DNA from: Gammaproteobacteria bacterium Gsub
Lineage (GTDB): Bacteria > Pseudomonadota > Gammaproteobacteria > PS1 > Pseudothioglobaceae
DNA: 64,000 nt
Direction: 5' to 3'
NCBI GenBank assembly: GCA_002007405.1
Contig: JYIN01000002.1
Coordinates: 124,001 to 188,000, forward strand
Program-made: the position numbers and the translations under genes
The notes under the pieces: model-generated
Databases searched by the model: none
The model's input: only the letters and a program-made list of their open reading frames with translations
Told to the model about the DNA's origin: nothing
In this document: one piece after another, positions 1 through 16,798 of the stretch
How the letters are laid out: every line of letters begins with the position of its first letter
Position numbering within the stretch: position 1 is the stretch's first letter

Positions 1-481
1 CAAAACCTAAATTTAATGATATTTCTTTATCACAAGCATTTATATGTTTAGGTTCTTTTTGTGTGGCATCACTATTATGGTTTATATCCAATAATTGTAA
101 ACCATCTTTAATGGATTCAATCAATACATCTATATGATTCTTTTCCTGAACGCTAATTAAATTATATAATTTTGATAACCCATCATCTAAATGAAGTTTA
201 ACTAATTGTGACCATTGTTCATTTGTGGTTGTATTACAATAGTATTGATTAAATAGTGATCTGTATAAATCTTCACTATTGCTATTAAACAGATTATGTC
301 CTTTGTATTCTTTGCCAGTATTGTCTAAGTTACCTACCTCATCTAAATTAAATTTAGTTAATTTTTGTAGGCTATAAGCAATAGCAATACGAGCAATCAC
401 CGCCTCATTGGGGAAATTAAATTTTTTTGTTAAATAGTTAACAACTTGTTTATTTTTCTGATTTGTCTTTATACTTAACAT
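1..481 (-). CDS. dndE: DndE-like DNA phosphorothioation protein (3' end beyond the window)
   Basis: The reading frame opens with ATG at 481 and stays open to base 1, giving at least 160 residues. The first ~105 residues match the DndE layout: a helical start with VIARIAIAYSLQKL, then a GKEYKGHNLF stretch and a LHLDDGLSKL helix. DndE is the small DNA-binding partner in phosphorothioate modification and is usually about 110-130 residues. Here at least 50 further residues follow, so this is a C-terminally extended form. It starts 9 bases after the dndD stop in the same direction, as expected for a dndCDE operon. The identification rests on motif resemblance and synteny. Confidence 0.7.
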   Translation of the reverse strand, partial: MLSIKTNQKNKQVVNYLTKKFNFPNEAVIARIAIAYSLQKLTKFNLDEVGNLDNTGKEYKGHNLFNSNSEDLYRSLFNQYYCNTTTNEQWSQLVKLHLDDGLSKLYNLISVQEKNHIDVLIESIKDGLQLLDINHNSDATQKEPKHINACDKEISLNLGF

Positions 482-489
482 AAACTATT

Positions 490-2529
490 CTAATTAAAAT
501 AACCTTTATGAATATCACTTTTACCGTTTGTATTGTTTATTAAATAATTTTGTGCAATATACTGGTTTATTTCGTTGTATTTTGATGTAGTTATTTCAGT
601 ATCTGTTGAAAAAATAACAACTTGGTTTGATAATTTAGGGTAATAATGTTTCAAAATATTGTCTCTATGTGTACTATCTAATCTAGCTAATGGGGTATCA
701 ATAAACACAGGTAAATTATGAATTGAATTATCCAAAATAGATTTAAGTAAGGCTGAGATATATAATTGTTGTTCGCCTTTTGATAATTTTTCTGAGTTTA
801 CTGGTTGAAGATTACTATCAAATAATTCAACCTCCATTCCTTTATCATTAGATAGTATAGTTATACGGACATCTTTAACGAGTTCTTTATGCCATAAATT
901 ATTTAATTCAGTTAATAACTTATCTTTAATAGATTCCTTTTTTTCATTTTTTTCTTCTTGAATAAAATCTTTTAATACATTGGTGTATTTTTCTGATAGT
1001 TCTATCTTTTCTTGATTTGTTTTATTTACCTTTGATGTGTCATATAATATTGAAAGCCTCTTTTCATCAGTTGAATTCTCTGTTTCAAGTTTAGATATAT
1101 CATTCTCTATACTACCTATTTTTTTATTCAAATCGTCCTTTTTATTTTCAAAATTTTTTTTATCATCAATAAAGGATTTTGTAAGATCATCGGCACTCAT
1201 AAGTTCCGATTGTTTTATAGTTTTTTCTAATGTTTCTAATTCATTTTTTGTTTTAAAAAACTGGGTAATTACTTTAGAGAAGTTAGTATCAGATTTATTT
1301 TTAATATTATCATAATTACTATTTAAATCTTTTATTTTAGATCTGTCTAAATTATGTTTAAATGGCAATGAATACTCGATGTTATCGGTACTATCAATAA
1401 AACATTTTGCTAACTTTTTAGATTTATCCGCATAAAATGTTTTTTGATTAAAGTTAATATCTGGATTAGGTAAATCGCCTTTATTAAAAAGTTGGTCAAT
1501 AAATAAATCTGCTTTTTCAGAAAAACTTTTCTTAGTAAGTTCATTTTCCTTATTGTTCTCTTCAATATCTATATGTTCTTTGGCCTCTTGTATTAAGCTA
1601 GATAACATCAATAACGGCATAACATCTACCATCTTATGAAATTCAAGTTGCACTTCATCTCTTTGTTTTTCTAAATTAACTCTTTCTCCCTGTAAATCCT
1701 CAATATTATTATTGTCTCCACCTTTACGACTAATATCCCTCTCTAATTGTTCTATTTTTCCAATAATCTCTTGAATCTCTTTATTGTATTGTTGTAAGTT
1801 GTTATTCTTAGATTTGATTCGTTGTGTATTGGAACTAATCTTATTTTCAAACTGGGTAATTTGTTCTAGTATTTCATGTGTTGATGAATCCTTTTTTAAT
1901 TTTCTAATATATCCTTCTATTTCATCTAATAAATTTTGATAAATATTTAAACCCAGCATATTTCCTAAGGTTTTATCCATTAATTTAGCTTGTTTTGCCG
2001 AATTCAAGTCGGCTATTTGAGATATTTTTTCAGCATCAAAGAATACAAAACGGGCTATTTCTATTGGCACTAAATAATCATTAATAAAGTTTTGTTTTTC
2101 TTCTTTTGTGTTGAGTTCTAATAACTCTTCATCATTAGGTATTATTTCTAATAATTCTTCTTGTAAATCAGTGTTATAACTTCTTTTAACTGTAATTATA
2201 GATTCTTTATCATTACTGCCATACAATACATCGCTAAATAAGAGTTCCACACTAAAGTTGTGATTCCCTTCTTTTTTTATATCCTTATTCAGTACGCTAT
2301 CCAAAAATTTTGAATAATTGTTATTAATTTCCATTTTAAATGAATCATCAACATTATTAATAGATTCACCGTACAAGCACCAAACAATACCTAATAGAAA
2401 ATTAGTTTTACCATGTCCATTTTTACCACCAATTAAAATAATATTTTTTTCATTATTTGTGGTTAAATCTACACAGACCTCTGCATAAAATTGTCTAAAA
2501 TTTTTTAATACAATACGATTAATTTTCAT
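490..2529 (-). CDS. dndD: DNA sulfur modification ATPase DndD
   Basis: A 679-residue SMC/RecN-like ATPase. The Walker A motif GGKNGHGKTN is at residues 34-43. A long charged coiled-coil middle follows (about 200-560). The ABC-type signature LSKGEQQ lies near residue 582 and the Walker B stretch PVFIDTPLARLD near 606-617. In Dnd systems DndD is thought to supply ATP-driven DNA remodelling during sulfur insertion into the backbone. The gene overlaps the end of dndC by 11 bases, so the two are translationally coupled. Very low GC, like the rest of the island. Confidence 0.93.
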   Translation of the reverse strand: MKINRIVLKNFRQFYAEVCVDLTTNNEKNIILIGGKNGHGKTNFLLGIVWCLYGESINNVDDSFKMEINNNYSKFLDSVLNKDIKKEGNHNFSVELLFSDVLYGSNDKESIITVKRSYNTDLQEELLEIIPNDEELLELNTKEEKQNFINDYLVPIEIARFVFFDAEKISQIADLNSAKQAKLMDKTLGNMLGLNIYQNLLDEIEGYIRKLKKDSSTHEILEQITQFENKISSNTQRIKSKNNNLQQYNKEIQEIIGKIEQLERDISRKGGDNNNIEDLQGERVNLEKQRDEVQLEFHKMVDVMPLLMLSSLIQEAKEHIDIEENNKENELTKKSFSEKADLFIDQLFNKGDLPNPDINFNQKTFYADKSKKLAKCFIDSTDNIEYSLPFKHNLDRSKIKDLNSNYDNIKNKSDTNFSKVITQFFKTKNELETLEKTIKQSELMSADDLTKSFIDDKKNFENKKDDLNKKIGSIENDISKLETENSTDEKRLSILYDTSKVNKTNQEKIELSEKYTNVLKDFIQEEKNEKKESIKDKLLTELNNLWHKELVKDVRITILSNDKGMEVELFDSNLQPVNSEKLSKGEQQLYISALLKSILDNSIHNLPVFIDTPLARLDSTHRDNILKHYYPKLSNQVVIFSTDTEITTSKYNEINQYIAQNYLINNTNGKSDIHKGYFN

Positions 2530-3805
2530 TTCTTGCTTCTTTTTCTATTGCTTGTTCTACTTCTGAACTCATAGAAAATTTTCCTAATTTAAGACTTTTA
2601 TATTTCTCTTTTTCTACTAATTTAAAAATAAATTTATCATGTACATTATGTTTTTTACATAATTGTGCAATTCTACCATTTTGGGCCTTTTTTATTTCAT
2701 CTTGTCTATTCATAATATTGCCTTTAATCAATTCGTTATAAACTTGATAATATATTTTATACACATTTTTATAATAACCATCTCTATCCCATATTATTTG
2801 TATGGCTTTTAATTCTTGTTGGCTAATTAACTTCTCTTGCATGCTTTTTTCAGCACTTAATAATTGAGTCAATAAGAATTTGCGAGTCTGAATATTATAA
2901 GGGCCCTTGCCTTTACCGCCATTACGCAACACACCTGTTCTATATTTATCATTACCCCTATTTTCTACCAACCAATTTCTTATCTTTATCAATGGTTTTA
3001 AATGTTGTTCACCATTGTCAATTAAAGATTGCATAGATTTATCTTTTGCAACCACTGTACAAACCCAACAACCAAATCGACTTTGTCCACAAGATGGTGT
3101 TGTAGTATCAATAACTAAAGGACAATCACCACCGCTTGCTTTTCTATATAAATCGACCAATTTATTATTTGAACCTGCCCAAGGTGAAGATGTTTCTAAT
3201 AAGTACATCCAAATATCATCAGTACTAATATACCTAATCGGTTTATAAGTATACGCAGACTGCAAATCGCTATGTCTACTAAGACGACTATTGCCAACAC
3301 TATATTTTTTCAATGATTTTTTTCTAGCGATACTTTCATATTCTCTAGTACCTAATAAAATAATGACTTCTCCATTCTTTCTCACTTGTTCTTGAATATA
3401 AGCACTAGTGGGTCTAATTTTTAATCTATCAGTACACCACCTAAAACTACTATTAGGAGATGGATAACCTCTTCCAATCAAATTGACCCAGAAAGTATCA
3501 TTTAATGCTGGCATTGTTTTTTTAACAATTATTGGCAACTTGTCTATTTTTGCTTGTTGTTGTATCTGTTGTAATGTTTTATTAATCCAATCAATTACTT
3601 TTGGATTTTCCACAAGTGTATCATTACAAACCACATGAATATCTTTGGTTATTTTTTCTTTTGGTAACTCTTTGAGTGCATACCAAACCAGTTGCAATAA
3701 AGTTGTTGAATCTTTACCACCACTATAACCGATAATCCAAGGCTTATTATCTTGTAAATATTGATCTTTAATTTCTGCTTTTATGTAATCAATCTGCTTG
3801 TTCAT
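2519..3805 (-). CDS. dndC: DNA phosphorothioation sulfurtransferase DndC
   Basis: A 428-residue PAPS-reductase/ATP-pyrophosphatase-family protein. The PP-loop SGGKDST is at residues 28-34. Conserved cysteines are visible in SFRWCTDR, GGDCPLV, PSCGQ and FGCWVC and fit the 4Fe-4S cluster of DndC. The protein activates the target and transfers sulfur supplied by a cysteine desulfurase (DndA or IscS; none is in this window). Its 5' end overlaps the upstream regulator-like gene by 17 bases and its 3' end overlaps dndD, so all are in one transcript. Confidence 0.95.
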   Translation of the reverse strand: MNKQIDYIKAEIKDQYLQDNKPWIIGYSGGKDSTTLLQLVWYALKELPKEKITKDIHVVCNDTLVENPKVIDWINKTLQQIQQQAKIDKLPIIVKKTMPALNDTFWVNLIGRGYPSPNSSFRWCTDRLKIRPTSAYIQEQVRKNGEVIILLGTREYESIARKKSLKKYSVGNSRLSRHSDLQSAYTYKPIRYISTDDIWMYLLETSSPWAGSNNKLVDLYRKASGGDCPLVIDTTTPSCGQSRFGCWVCTVVAKDKSMQSLIDNGEQHLKPLIKIRNWLVENRGNDKYRTGVLRNGGKGKGPYNIQTRKFLLTQLLSAEKSMQEKLISQQELKAIQIIWDRDGYYKNVYKIYYQVYNELIKGNIMNRQDEIKKAQNGRIAQLCKKHNVHDKFIFKLVEKEKYKSLKLGKFSMSSEVEQAIEKEARNEN

Positions 3806-5537
3806 TGATTAGTCCTACAAAAGATCTTTCATAAAAAACAAAATGATTTCTATTATTTATTTTTAAATTTGACATTAATTTATGTTTATTTATTTCTCGC
3901 CATTTTTGTACTTCACATAAAATATCATCAATATGTTTTGGTTCTTCAAATTGCTTTAAATATTCAAGGACAATACTTATTATTGAACCACCTTTAACAA
4001 TAATTTTTTTATTATCGCACCACACTTTAATACCACTTCTATTGTTACTCGTTTTATTGGGTTTAACAATATCAACCAATATACTATTTTGAGTCAACTT
4101 TCTTTCCCACGACTTTAAACCATAAGTGCTATTACGGTCAAAATAAATAAATTTATCATTTCCTACCAAGGCATTACCTATATATTTTTTTGATTGACTA
4201 AATTTTGGATATATTCTTTTAATTTCGTTGTAAATTGTATCTAAATGTGCTGGCTTATTAATATTGTTTAAAACCTCTTTTATATAGAAATCTGTAGATT
4301 TTTTTCTTTTTCCTTTAATAAGAATTTGATTATTAAAATCTGGCACTATGTTAAATTCTAAATTCAATAAATCTTCACAAATAGATTCAATTTCTATTGC
4401 GATTTCATCATTGTTTATTAACTTAAAGTAAGATGATAAAACACCTTTAAAATCTAATTTAGTATCGCTTTTGAATTCTCTTTGTAATATTTTAATTTTT
4501 TTAATAAAACCATTAAAATCAAATGCATCAATAAGATGATTTTTGATTAAAAATCTACAGTTATTTTTATCTTTAATTATTAATTGATAGTCATTTTTTA
4601 AGAGTATAGCAAGCACATTATATAAAAAATTGTCAGAAAAGCGAGTATCATCCCGTTTGTTAATAGTGTTAATATTACTGATAAGGCTACCTTGTAATTG
4701 GTATTGTTGCTTAATCTTAAACAAAAAAACATAAGACGATAATCCTCTTATAACTGACCATAATTTTTTACTTTCCTTTTTTTCTATTTGTCTGACTCTT
4801 TCCCTGGTAATGCCAAATTCTTTACCTAACTTTTCCAATGAAAATTTATTTTCAAGCCAGTAACAAGTTCTATGTTTTAATATTTTCAGCGACCTTTTGT
4901 CAAAACTATATTCAATTAACAAATTCAATATTGTAAAGAAATGAATGCCATTATTAAGATGTTTTTTTTGATATTCATCAATACAATATTGTGGTAAATG
5001 CATATATTCCATTAGGTCTAGTGTTGTATCAATATTCATTCTTTTAGACTTATATAAACATTCAATATCTTGGTGTATATTATTAAGAAACTTTTGAATT
5101 TCTAATTCGGATTTTTTACCAACATTTGGTAGCGTAGATATAGATTGTGAAAATAAATATTTTAAAAAATTAACAATATTATTATGTCGTTTAAATTCTG
5201 AATTAATAGCATTTTGGCTTCTAGTACTCAAATTTTCTATTGCACTTAATAAACAATTTTTTAGCTTAGCCTCTTTAAGAGGAAAATCGGATATATGGTC
5301 TAACCACATATTAACTTTTAGTTCTTTATTGATATATTTTTTAGATACACTCATTCCTAAGCATAAGTCTATTACACTTAGTTTTTCTTTAATCTCTTTT
5401 AATGATTTAATTCCTAAACTAGGAAAACGCATCAAATGAGATTCATCTAAAACAATTAAATCGTTAATATAATAAATTTGTTGTTGTTTTAAGCAATTTT
5501 CTGACCTAACTGATAATTGCAAAGATTCTATTTTCAT
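3789..5537 (-). CDS. Multidomain DNA-binding protein (alpha-CTD-like, sigma region 4-like, HARE-HTH-like) at the dndB position
   Basis: A 582-residue protein with no DGQHR motif, so it is not DndB. Visible pieces in order are: a helix-hairpin-helix segment like the RNA-polymerase alpha C-terminal domain (about 20-55, INDLIVLDESHLMRFPSLGIKSLKEI); a second short hairpin (about 132-152, STLPNVGKKSELEI); a sigma-70 region-4-like HTH (about 232-262, LEKLGKEFGITRERVRQIE); and two C-terminal HARE-HTH-like segments (about 416-478 with FIYFDRNSTYGLKSWE, and about 518-578 ending FVFYERSFVGL). HARE-HTH domains recur in restriction and chromatin proteins. The gene overlaps dndC by 17 bases, tying it to the Dnd system. 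A role as transcriptional regulator or DNA-recognition subunit is inference. Confidence 0.75.
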   Translation of the reverse strand: MKIESLQLSVRSENCLKQQQIYYINDLIVLDESHLMRFPSLGIKSLKEIKEKLSVIDLCLGMSVSKKYINKELKVNMWLDHISDFPLKEAKLKNCLLSAIENLSTRSQNAINSEFKRHNNIVNFLKYLFSQSISTLPNVGKKSELEIQKFLNNIHQDIECLYKSKRMNIDTTLDLMEYMHLPQYCIDEYQKKHLNNGIHFFTILNLLIEYSFDKRSLKILKHRTCYWLENKFSLEKLGKEFGITRERVRQIEKKESKKLWSVIRGLSSYVFLFKIKQQYQLQGSLISNINTINKRDDTRFSDNFLYNVLAILLKNDYQLIIKDKNNCRFLIKNHLIDAFDFNGFIKKIKILQREFKSDTKLDFKGVLSSYFKLINNDEIAIEIESICEDLLNLEFNIVPDFNNQILIKGKRKKSTDFYIKEVLNNINKPAHLDTIYNEIKRIYPKFSQSKKYIGNALVGNDKFIYFDRNSTYGLKSWERKLTQNSILVDIVKPNKTSNNRSGIKVWCDNKKIIVKGGSIISIVLEYLKQFEEPKHIDDILCEVQKWREINKHKLMSNLKINNRNHFVFYERSFVGLINEQAD

Positions 5538-5619
5538 TATTTATAGTATGATTTAAATTACCATCTATGGATTTACTTATTAGTATTTATTTAGTACTGT
5601 TTTGAATTCATCTAACTCC

Positions 5620-6768
5620 TTAATTCGCATAATGAACACCTAATAATTGCTTGAAATACTGGGTAATTTTTTGTTTTGCTTTATCCAATAAATGCGTTTG
5701 TGAAAAATCAAATGGGGCAAAATATTGGCGTAAGTTTTGGTGTCTATTTAATGCTTCTAAAATAAAATATTTTTTATATTTTTGAAACAAATCATTGTCA
5801 ATTAGTACATTACAATTACCAAAATAATAGGGCACACGATGTGCAAATTGTTTAAAAACATCAATATAAATGTAATAATCTAGTTTGGATTTATCAATAA
5901 TAATGCTATTATTGCTATGCTTAGTCACAAAAGTTTGATTGCGTTTTAAGGCGTTAATATCACGCATTGTCCAGAAAAAAATATCATCATTTTTGACTTG
6001 TTGATATTTATTAGGATATTTTTTGACATAATGAGATATGTCGTCAAAATCACTCAATTTAAAATTTTTATCATCTACTTGCCAAGAAAAATCAACTATG
6101 TTGCGATAATTCATCCCAATACTGCTTCTTTTATATAGGGCGATGGCAATGGGAAATTGCATAGATTTAGAAGAGTCATTAAAAACACTGCTACTGATAA
6201 TGTGCCCTTTAATTAATTGATAATTTTTATTAAAATTTTCTAGTAATTTAAAATTACTGGGTTTGATTAAATAAGATAATGGGTGCAAAACACAGATAAA
6301 ACTAGCCTTTAACTTATCGTAAGAAAGTAGAAATGACATCCCCAAATCACGCGTTAAAATATCATTATCAATACTCATCTCAAAAGTTTTGATATGGCTT
6401 CTAATAATGGAAGTTTTATCATTATAAGGCGGGTTTCCAATAATAAAAAGCACTTGATTCTCATCAATGCTGTATTGTTTTCTAGCAACATTTTTTAGGG
6501 CATTATGATTTAAAAAAACAGCATCACTGATATTTTCTTGTGCTTTTTTAACAGCCAAAGTATCAATATCATTGCCAATTTTTTTGCCGATAAAAGGCAT
6601 ATTTAAAAAATTACCATAACCACAAGAATTATCCAAAATAACGGCTTGTTTATTAAGGTAGGGCGTTATCATCTCCCAAACAGTTTGGACATAAATCTCC
6701 TTTGTGTAATACGCCCCCATGTTGACTCTATCAACATAGTTTAGATGGTTTTGCTTAGCCAGATTCAT
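5620..6768 (-). CDS. N6-adenine-type DNA methyltransferase
   Basis: A 382-residue gamma-type class I DNA methyltransferase. Motif X-like GAYYT is at residues 18-22, motif I LDNSCGYGNF at 45-54 and catalytic NPPY at 112-115. The C-terminal half would carry target recognition. No endonuclease gene adjoins it in the window, so it is an orphan as seen here. The ATG overlaps the nuoD stop by one base (TAATG on the minus strand). An 82-base gap separates it from the Dnd genes that follow in the same direction. It may add a second modification to the island or be an independent solitary enzyme. Confidence 0.85.
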   Translation of the reverse strand: MNLAKQNHLNYVDRVNMGAYYTKEIYVQTVWEMITPYLNKQAVILDNSCGYGNFLNMPFIGKKIGNDIDTLAVKKAQENISDAVFLNHNALKNVARKQYSIDENQVLFIIGNPPYNDKTSIIRSHIKTFEMSIDNDILTRDLGMSFLLSYDKLKASFICVLHPLSYLIKPSNFKLLENFNKNYQLIKGHIISSSVFNDSSKSMQFPIAIALYKRSSIGMNYRNIVDFSWQVDDKNFKLSDFDDISHYVKKYPNKYQQVKNDDIFFWTMRDINALKRNQTFVTKHSNNSIIIDKSKLDYYIYIDVFKQFAHRVPYYFGNCNVLIDNDLFQKYKKYFILEALNRHQNLRQYFAPFDFSQTHLLDKAKQKITQYFKQLLGVHYAN

Positions 6769-8021
6769 TATCTATCTATCTCACCAAATACAATATCTTG
6801 AGTGCCGATAATGGTTACCACATCGGATAGCATATGTCCTTTTGTCATCTCGTCCATTGCCGCTAGATGGGCAAAACCAGGCGCTCTGATTTTTACTCTA
6901 TAGGGTTTATTGGCACCATCTGAGATTAAATAAATACCAAATTCACCCTTGGGATGCTCAATCGCACAATAAACCTCACCCTTTGGCAGGCAGTAACCTT
7001 CGGTAAAAAGTTTAAAGTGGTGAATTAAGGATTCCATATCATCTTTCATTGCCACTCGACTGGGTGGGGCAACTTTGTGATCATCACTCATAACCTCACC
7101 AGGGTTGTCTTTTAGCCACGCCACACATTGTTTGATAATACGGTTGGATTGGCGCATTTCTTCCATCCGCACCAAATAGCGGTCATAACTATCGCCAGTA
7201 ACTCCCACAGGAATATCAAAATCTAATTGGTTATAAACGCTGTAGGGTTGTTTTTTTCTAAGGTCCCACGCTACGCCAGAGCCGCGTAGCATCGGACCGG
7301 TAAAACCCAGTTGTTTAGCACGCTTTGCGGTAACGATGCCAATATTAACCAGCCGCTGTTTCCAAATCCGATTATCAGTTAATAAATCATCATATTGCTG
7401 GATGCTTTTGGGGAATTCTTCGGTGAAATCAGCAATAAAATCTAATAATGAACCTTGACGGTTTTTATTCATTTGTGCCAATTCTTTATTAGTGCGAAAA
7501 TCGGATTCTAAATATTGCGGCATTTTATCAGGCAAATCACGATAAACTCCGCCCGGACGGTAATAAGTTGCGTGCATTCGCGAACCTGAGACCGCTTCAT
7601 AACAATCAATGAGTTTTTCGCGTTCGCGAAAAGCATAGAGAAAAATACTCATTGCCCCCACATCAAGCCCATGAGTACCGAGCCACATAAGATGATTGAG
7701 GATACGGGTAATTTCATCAAACATCACCCGAATATATTGGGCGCGCTGTGGCACTTCAATCTCTAGCATTTTCTCAATCGCCATCACAAAAGCATGTTCA
7801 TTACACATCATTGATACATAATCAAGCCTATCCATATAACCAATAGAGTGGTTGTAAGGCTTGGACTCGGCTAACTTCTCAGTGCCACGATGCAACAAAC
7901 CAATATGCGGGTCGGCGCGTTTAATGACTTCGCCATCAATCTCTAAAATAAGACGCAAAACTCCGTGTGCCGCTGGATGTTGAGGACCAAAATTTAAGGT
8001 GTAGTTGTGAATTTCAGCCAT
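6768..8021 (-). CDS. nuoD: NADH-quinone oxidoreductase subunit D
   Basis: The 417-residue 49-kDa-type subunit of respiratory complex I, in the peripheral arm next to the quinone-binding site. It is full length, with family signatures GPQHPAAHG near residue 13 and [12 protein letters not shown], and a C-terminus ending in DIVFGEIDR as is usual. It lies in a nuoA-B-C-D order on the minus strand. The usual next gene, nuoE, is absent: the stop codon is shared with the start of a DNA methyltransferase instead. Confidence 0.98.
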
Positions 8022-14410: not shown

Positions 14411-15063
14411 TTATTGTGTATCAACATTTCTTTTACCAAAAATGTCACTGCCGACTCTTACCATAGTGGCAGCGTTTTTAATAGCTAATTCTAAATCACC
14501 ACTCATACCCATTGACAAACTGTCTAAATGCGAATATTGTTTGAATATTACAGCCATTTTAGCAAAGCTTACGGGCAAATTATCCGTATTTGGGATGCAC
14601 ATAAAGCCTCTTAAAATCAGTTTATCAAAATTTTTAAAATATACAACCATATCCTCAATTTGGGAAACCGATATACCTGATTTTCTGGGCGCATTATCAA
14701 TATTAACTTGTAATAATATATTGAGTTTGGCTAAATTTTCTGGACGCTGATGGTTTAATCTTTTAGCAATTTTTATACTGTCTACACCATGTACCCAAGT
14801 AAAATTCTTAGCAATTTTAGCAGTTTTATTAGATTGAATACTGCCGATAAAATGCCAAACTAAATCTTGATTTTTTGCATTCAATACTGCAATTTTTGCT
14901 AATGCTTCTTGCAAATAATTTTCTCCAAAATGCCTCTGCCCAACATCAATTGCTTGTTGGATCTCGTCTGTAGTTTTGGTTTTGCTAACGGCAATTAGAC
15001 TAACCTGCTGATTTTTATCAACAGCATGAATACGCGCTTGAACTTTTTTTAGATTTTGAGCAA

Positions 15064-15067
<4 letters not shown>
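14411..15067 (-). CDS. YggS-family pyridoxal-phosphate homeostasis protein
   Basis: A 218-residue PLP-binding TIM-barrel protein without known enzyme activity. The lysine-bearing strand is SLIAVSKTK (about residues 23-31), followed by HFGENYLQEA and WHFIGSIQSNK, and the phosphate-binding SMGMSGDLELAI near the end. It buffers free PLP in the cell. It overlaps the following PyrK-like gene by 4 bases. Confidence 0.95.

Positions 15068-16798
<1,731 letters not shown>

Follow-up and report, generated by a model that had tools for sequence, protein, structure and literature searches.

A protein that combines RNA-polymerase-type DNA-contact modules with two HARE-like winged helices is encoded at the head of a phosphorothioation (dnd) operon in Gammaproteobacteria bacterium Gsub, and related genes occupy the same position in a small clade of dnd loci spanning two phyla. 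We tentatively propose that this protein (the αCTD/σ4/HARE protein) serves a DndE–HerA-type phosphorothioation system as a dedicated subunit for DNA recognition. The window (the whole stretch of DNA analysed, 64,000 nucleotides) belongs to a genome of 1.37 Mb in 14 contigs. Read 5′ to 3′ along the minus strand, the gene order is nuoD, DNA methyltransferase, αCTD/σ4/HARE gene, dndC, dndD and dndE:

6768–8021, minus strand: nuoD, the left border of the insertion
5620–6768, minus strand: orphan DNA methyltransferase (382 amino acids), its start codon overlapping the nuoD stop
3789–5537, minus strand: αCTD/σ4/HARE gene (582 amino acids), heading the dnd operon (dndC, dndD, dndE–HerA)
2519–3805, minus strand: dndC (428 amino acids), assigned by PADLOC and NCBIfam profiles and conserved residues
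490–2529, minus strand: dndD (679 amino acids), an ABC ATPase, assigned by PADLOC and NCBIfam profiles
1–481, minus strand: 5′ part of the dndE–HerA fusion gene (open reading frame from the dndE start codon to the window edge, 2–481), assigned by Pfam DndE

The first-pass annotation of this DNA had called dndC, dndD and dndE clear, and profile scores and coordinates agree. DndC scores 494 bits with PADLOC and 447.8 bits with the NCBIfam equivalog (cut-off 290.4), and its PP-loop SGGKDST and cysteines 124, 228, 239, 246 and 249 are invariant in an alignment of eight DndC sequences. DndD scores 350 bits with PADLOC and 308.7 bits with the NCBIfam equivalog (cut-off 245.85). The DndE part is recognized by Pfam (47.5 bits against a cut-off of 25) and lies under the NCBIfam DndE cut-off; its gene crosses the window edge and runs on to G000:C6:122934, giving a product of 515 residues. 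The reported 17-base overlap of the αCTD/σ4/HARE gene with dndC is exact (3789–3805). The dnd cassette contains no dndA; four aminotransferase-V family genes elsewhere in the genome could be DndA substitutes.

The αCTD/σ4/HARE protein is a linear array of small modules, in the order αCTD, second αCTD-like module, σ region 4, middle domain and two HARE-like winged helices:

5346–5537, minus strand: αCTD module 1 (residues 1–64), from Pfam, PDB, Foldseek and a residue table
5046–5264, minus strand: second αCTD-like helix-hairpin-helix module (about residues 92–164), from hhalign
4752–4925, minus strand: σ70 region 4-like helix-turn-helix (about residues 205–262), from Pfam, PDB σ70 region 4 and alignment
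4314–4685, minus strand: middle α/β region (about residues 285–408), conserved within the dndC-linked clade
4104–4304, minus strand: HARE-like winged helix 1 (residues 412–478) with an STYGLKxW motif, from a homologue, profile and model
3807–3992, minus strand: HARE-like winged helix 2 (residues 516–577), from TFIIE_beta, profile and model

Residues 1–54 match Pfam RNA_pol_A_CTD above its cut-off (E 7e-20), αCTD module 1 matches a PDB αCTD at 7.9e-13, and the αCTD of the full-length structure model aligns with solved αCTDs at Foldseek target TM values of up to 0.9. The second αCTD-like module aligns with module 1 at an hhalign probability of 96.6%, a pairwise value and not a database E-value. 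Pfam Sigma70_r4 covers residues 224–254 (E 8e-7; 29 bits against a cut-off of 24.1). Family matches were sought for the middle α/β region and none was found. At the C terminus, Pfam gives a winged-helix match under threshold (TFIIE_beta, residues 522–563, E 0.0016), and the protein itself does not reach the Pfam HARE-HTH cut-off; at the aligned position, however, a homologue from Bacteroidota (locus L055) does (31.7 bits against 25.9; 2e-7). Residues 411–480 align with the HARE domains of Dnd-linked HARE-Mrr nucleases at a probability of 86% and with residues 512–578 at 95.5% (both pairwise profile–profile values, not database E-values). Structure models were built on six sequences. The AlphaFold model of the C-terminal part (pLDDT 86) contains two H-H-H-E-E winged helices, for which Foldseek returns forkhead domains and the N-terminal HARE of RNAP delta at probabilities of 0.93–0.99 with E above 0.07; the full-length model has moderate values (pLDDT 73.6, pTM 0.44). 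Against the PDB, the C-terminal half as a sequence profile gives insignificant matches only. Pfam, the L055 homologue, profile–profile comparison and the model thus converge on the architecture first suggested, polymerase-like DNA-contact modules plus two HARE-like domains, with segment limits (1–60, 225–265, 415–480 and 515–580) that proved right; the concern that profile searches might miss these domains was not borne out.

Which functions of the polymerase modules survive can be judged from individual residues. The E. coli αCTD residues R265, N268, C269, G296, K298, S299 and E302, which we take to be its DNA contacts, are all retained in αCTD module 1, and the same set except C269 is retained in the αCTDs of the Bacteroidota homologues L054 and L056. 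At positions 259 and 261, presumably the contacts to σ4, the Gsub protein has S and Q in place of D and E. The core of the σ4 recognition helix, ERxRQ, is invariant across six homologues that are 23–31% identical to the protein. Pfam gives no match to σ region 2 (Sigma70_r2, up to E 10) and none to the N-terminal dimerization domain of the RNA polymerase α subunit, of which the CTD alone matches. Because σ region 2 is absent and the σ-contact residues of the αCTD are altered, the protein is not a working sigma factor, and for the same reasons DNA binding looks kept whereas the polymerase roles look lost. Judged by its sequence, the protein is a set of polymerase DNA-contact parts without those that make a sigma factor or an α subunit. 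This pattern, with αCTD DNA-contact residues and the ERxRQ core kept and polymerase roles lost, is one reason for favouring a DNA-recognition subunit. αCTD module 1 (5346–5537) also resembles true RpoA CTDs of the order (52–57% identity), and its score is far above those of the αCTDs of L054 and L056; the module could have been renewed from a proteobacterial rpoA.

The linkage to dnd genes claimed in the first-pass annotation extends beyond Gsub. A single-sequence DndC query against genome contigs returned nothing, whereas an eight-sequence alignment used as query for the genome collection succeeded, and the best 80 of 579 DndC loci were examined. Among these, the three best DndC matches, L054 (59% identity), L055 (58%) and L056 (55%), are all from Bacteroidota, and all three have the neighbour that the annotation had proposed looking for in other dndCDE loci: a homologue of the αCTD/σ4/HARE protein (2.7e-36, 7e-22 and 7e-27, respectively) lies immediately before dndC, with an overlap of up to 4 bases or a gap of at most 4 bases, and dndD and then dndE–HerA follow. 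In a tree of 88 DndC sequences, these three and Gsub DndC form one clade (SH-aLRT 99). That the gene stands directly before dndC in all four clade members, from two phyla, is a second reason for favouring a DNA-recognition subunit. In L056 (Flaviaesturariibacter), a HARE-HTH fused to an Mrr nuclease domain is encoded directly after dndE–HerA (14930–15748, plus strand). A different explanation, that the DNA-binding protein is a passenger carried by chance in one mobile cassette, is improbable: the linkage persists at 26–31% protein identity across two phyla while the rest of the neighbourhood differs among the four members, reading frames are intact, motifs are conserved and the genes overlap or nearly touch. 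A passenger would nevertheless fit the rarity of the gene, since only four members in the slot before dndC were found (none in any other of the best 80 of 579 loci) and 398 other Pseudomonadota genomes sampled lack it.

The searches for further carriers were as follows. DndC was found in no other genome among 83 of the order PS1 at the threshold used. When 399 Pseudomonadota genomes (Gsub included) and viral contigs were searched with a profile of the C-terminal half, no further carrier turned up in either set, and a Bacteroidota homologue as query found none among plasmids. Used as a query for the order, for plasmids and for phages, the full-length protein retrieved RpoA CTDs; the protein minus its αCTD returned σ factors. 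One candidate, L106, was rejected because its gene, which lies near dndC, is a genuine rpoA. The αCTD/σ4/HARE gene is missing from most of the DndE–HerA loci seen, which counts against a recognition subunit; the gene is therefore unnecessary for modification in general.

In two loci from Bacteroidota, the gene immediately preceding the phosphorothioate restriction helicase encodes a longer protein with the same module order:

L126, 6796–9012: longer αCTD/σ4/HARE-like protein, between dndE and a PLD/HKD-type SF2 helicase
L128, 13858–16332: longer αCTD/σ4/HARE-like protein, between dndE and a PLD/HKD-type SF2 helicase

The C terminus of the L126 protein weakly matches a ‘helicase associated’ domain. 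On plasmids of Ruegeria, Pontibrevibacter and Rhizobium (two), longer relatives likewise adjoin the restriction helicase, and canonical dndB is also present. As relatives stand either before dndC or by the helicase, the architecture is tied to two parts of phosphorothioate systems, and its coexistence with dndB in the four plasmid loci means that it is no general substitute for DndB. The constant pairing of the longer relatives with an enzyme, even beside dndB, is a third reason for favouring a DNA-recognition subunit; the HARE domain fused to Mrr beside dndE–HerA in L056 is a fourth.

The cassette, five defence genes in all, sits cleanly inside the nuo operon, on the same strand, at the nuoD/nuoE junction (window 1–8021, G000:C6:122472–124481). 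The right border, nuoE, lies outside the window and begins 3 bp past the dndE–HerA stop. The G+C content of the dnd cassette is 24–30%, against 35–47% for the nuo genes. Both genes are visible in 37 relatives, and in 36 of these nuoD and nuoE are no more than 200 bp apart and the junction is empty; the exception, from another genus (G060, locus L192, G060:C20, 2908–4822), carries in the junction a methyltransferase and an R.PabI-type nuclease. One site within nuo has accordingly taken up defence genes in two genera. The methyltransferase was considered as a part of the dnd system and rejected, because a copy 67% identical to it occurs with R.PabI at the same junction without dndC. A 16-codon open reading frame (MRIKELDEFKTVLNKY; 5580–5630, minus strand) has its ATG overlapping the methyltransferase stop, where R.PabI starts in G060. 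It shows no resemblance to R.PabI and is possibly debris of a lost partner gene. The likely history is a restriction–modification pair in the junction, loss of the nuclease and arrival of the dnd cassette, an order of events that we infer.

The first-pass annotation had described dndB as replaced, which is too strong. The αCTD/σ4/HARE protein shares with DndB the slot before dndC and has no sequence relation to it: the DndB family (PF14072/DGQHR) matches neither the protein nor anything else in the Gsub genome. The annotation's own counter-scenario, a true dndB next door with this gene unlinked in relatives, likewise fails. None of the DndE–HerA loci seen has dndB directly before dndC. In about half of them (a count that takes in L108, which entered through another long open reading frame, its dndE being separate and its dndB canonical) the stretch seen includes a divergent DGQHR/DndB-like gene, in most cases downstream; L054, L055 and L056 have none in the stretch seen. 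Because the slot never holds dndB in the DndE–HerA loci seen, an addition within one clade is the best reading of the gene, and because sister loci without dndB in the slot also lack the αCTD/σ4/HARE gene, nothing has visibly been swapped.

These loci bear on the main competing explanation, a transcriptional regulator in the role of DndB, whose αCTD and σ4 modules would bind the promoter and repress or tune dndCDE, perhaps through HARE-sensed modification. Such a regulator would suit a gene in the dndB slot of a genome without dndB, given that DndB represses dndCDE in Salmonella (PMC4507180), and it would suit the retained promoter-DNA contact residues; σ4 and αCTD are promoter-binding modules, which fit a regulator as well as a recognition subunit. 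The sister loci with neither gene in the slot speak against it, as does the coexistence of relatives with dndB on the four plasmids. A further point against it is the position of the gene within the nuo operon, following a methyltransferase gene that overlaps nuoD. Upstream of the gene there is no inverted-repeat operator and promoter matches are no better than chance, absences that count as weak evidence; the operator motif of Salmonella DndB does not occur in the 64,000-nucleotide window. On balance a regulator appears rather unlikely, and we favour, still tentatively, a DNA-recognition subunit.

As a DNA-recognition subunit, the protein would contact double-stranded DNA through several of its small modules simultaneously: the αCTD-type helix-hairpin-helix modules would grip the minor groove, the σ4 helix would enter the major groove, and the HARE-like winged helices at the C terminus may respond to modification state or to a partner protein. 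Holding on to DNA or scanning it, the protein may direct DndC, DndD and DndE–HerA to sites or report the modification state of those sites. We infer that the protein binds DNA, touches Dnd proteins and influences whether sulfur enters and at which positions. Passages of Rakesh et al. 2024 (PMC10853773) propose HARE as a modification sensor, and cytosine modification has been given as the likelier HARE target (PMC11037411); that the published proposal concerns mostly modified bases, not phosphorothioates, counts against a recognition subunit. In Salmonella only a fraction of Dnd consensus sites is modified (PMC4507180). A co-encoded protein made of known DNA-binding modules and retained with dndC in two phyla would be a candidate for choosing among consensus sites or for sensing modification. 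A more elaborate possibility, a modification reader built from polymerase modules that would couple the state of promoter-like DNA to DndCDE–HerA and aim modification at or away from promoters, strikes us as quite improbable.

Polymerase-type DNA-contact modules recur in modification-based defence. MzaA of the MZA anti-phage system has a C-terminal σ4-like region resembling that of the αCTD/σ4/HARE protein, but only 49–87 residues match, and the protein falls far below the NCBIfam cut-off for full-length MzaA (39.6 bits against 800). PglW of type 2 BREX joins an αCTD-like domain to winged helices that follow it; it differs in being a kinase/nuclease protein of 1400–1600 residues, for which passages of PMC12839542 describe this arrangement and report no σ4. 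These likenesses, together with the restriction helicase beside the longer relatives, would accord with a phage-sensing or effector component that binds promoter-like or modified DNA of an invader or competes with RNA polymerase, with HARE discriminating self. Against this, Pfam detects neither a nuclease nor another effector domain in the protein, and the rest of the Gsub genome yielded no HARE-HTH or Mrr domain; we regard such a component as unlikely.

DndE–HerA fusions and their Dnd systems are already published, as passages of Rakesh et al. 2024 (PMC10853773) make clear. The main text of that paper, searched by terms, contains no αCTD–σ4–HARE protein before dndC, and literature searched by terms yielded no description of such a protein linked to dndC, an earlier mention elsewhere being possible. 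The Dnd systems with DndE–HerA/FtsK fusions treated in those passages resemble that of Gsub in that a single operon holds dndC, dndD and a DndE–HerA fusion; they differ in that HARE is joined to a nuclease and some DndH proteins carry a σ-like helix-turn-helix. HARE-HTH domains (RNAP delta, HARE-Mrr nucleases) share fold and sequence profile with the C-terminal modules, which differ in lying under the Pfam cut-off and in that the extra helix of classical HARE is not resolved. Proteins named ‘Sigma factor-like helix-turn-helix DNA-binding protein’ (for example, WP_152460869.1) also occur in dnd loci and have αCTD-like, σ4 and winged-helix modules; their overall sequence similarity to the αCTD/σ4/HARE protein is weak, and unlike it they are 748–1026 residues long, lie by the restriction helicase rather than before dndC and coexist with dndB.
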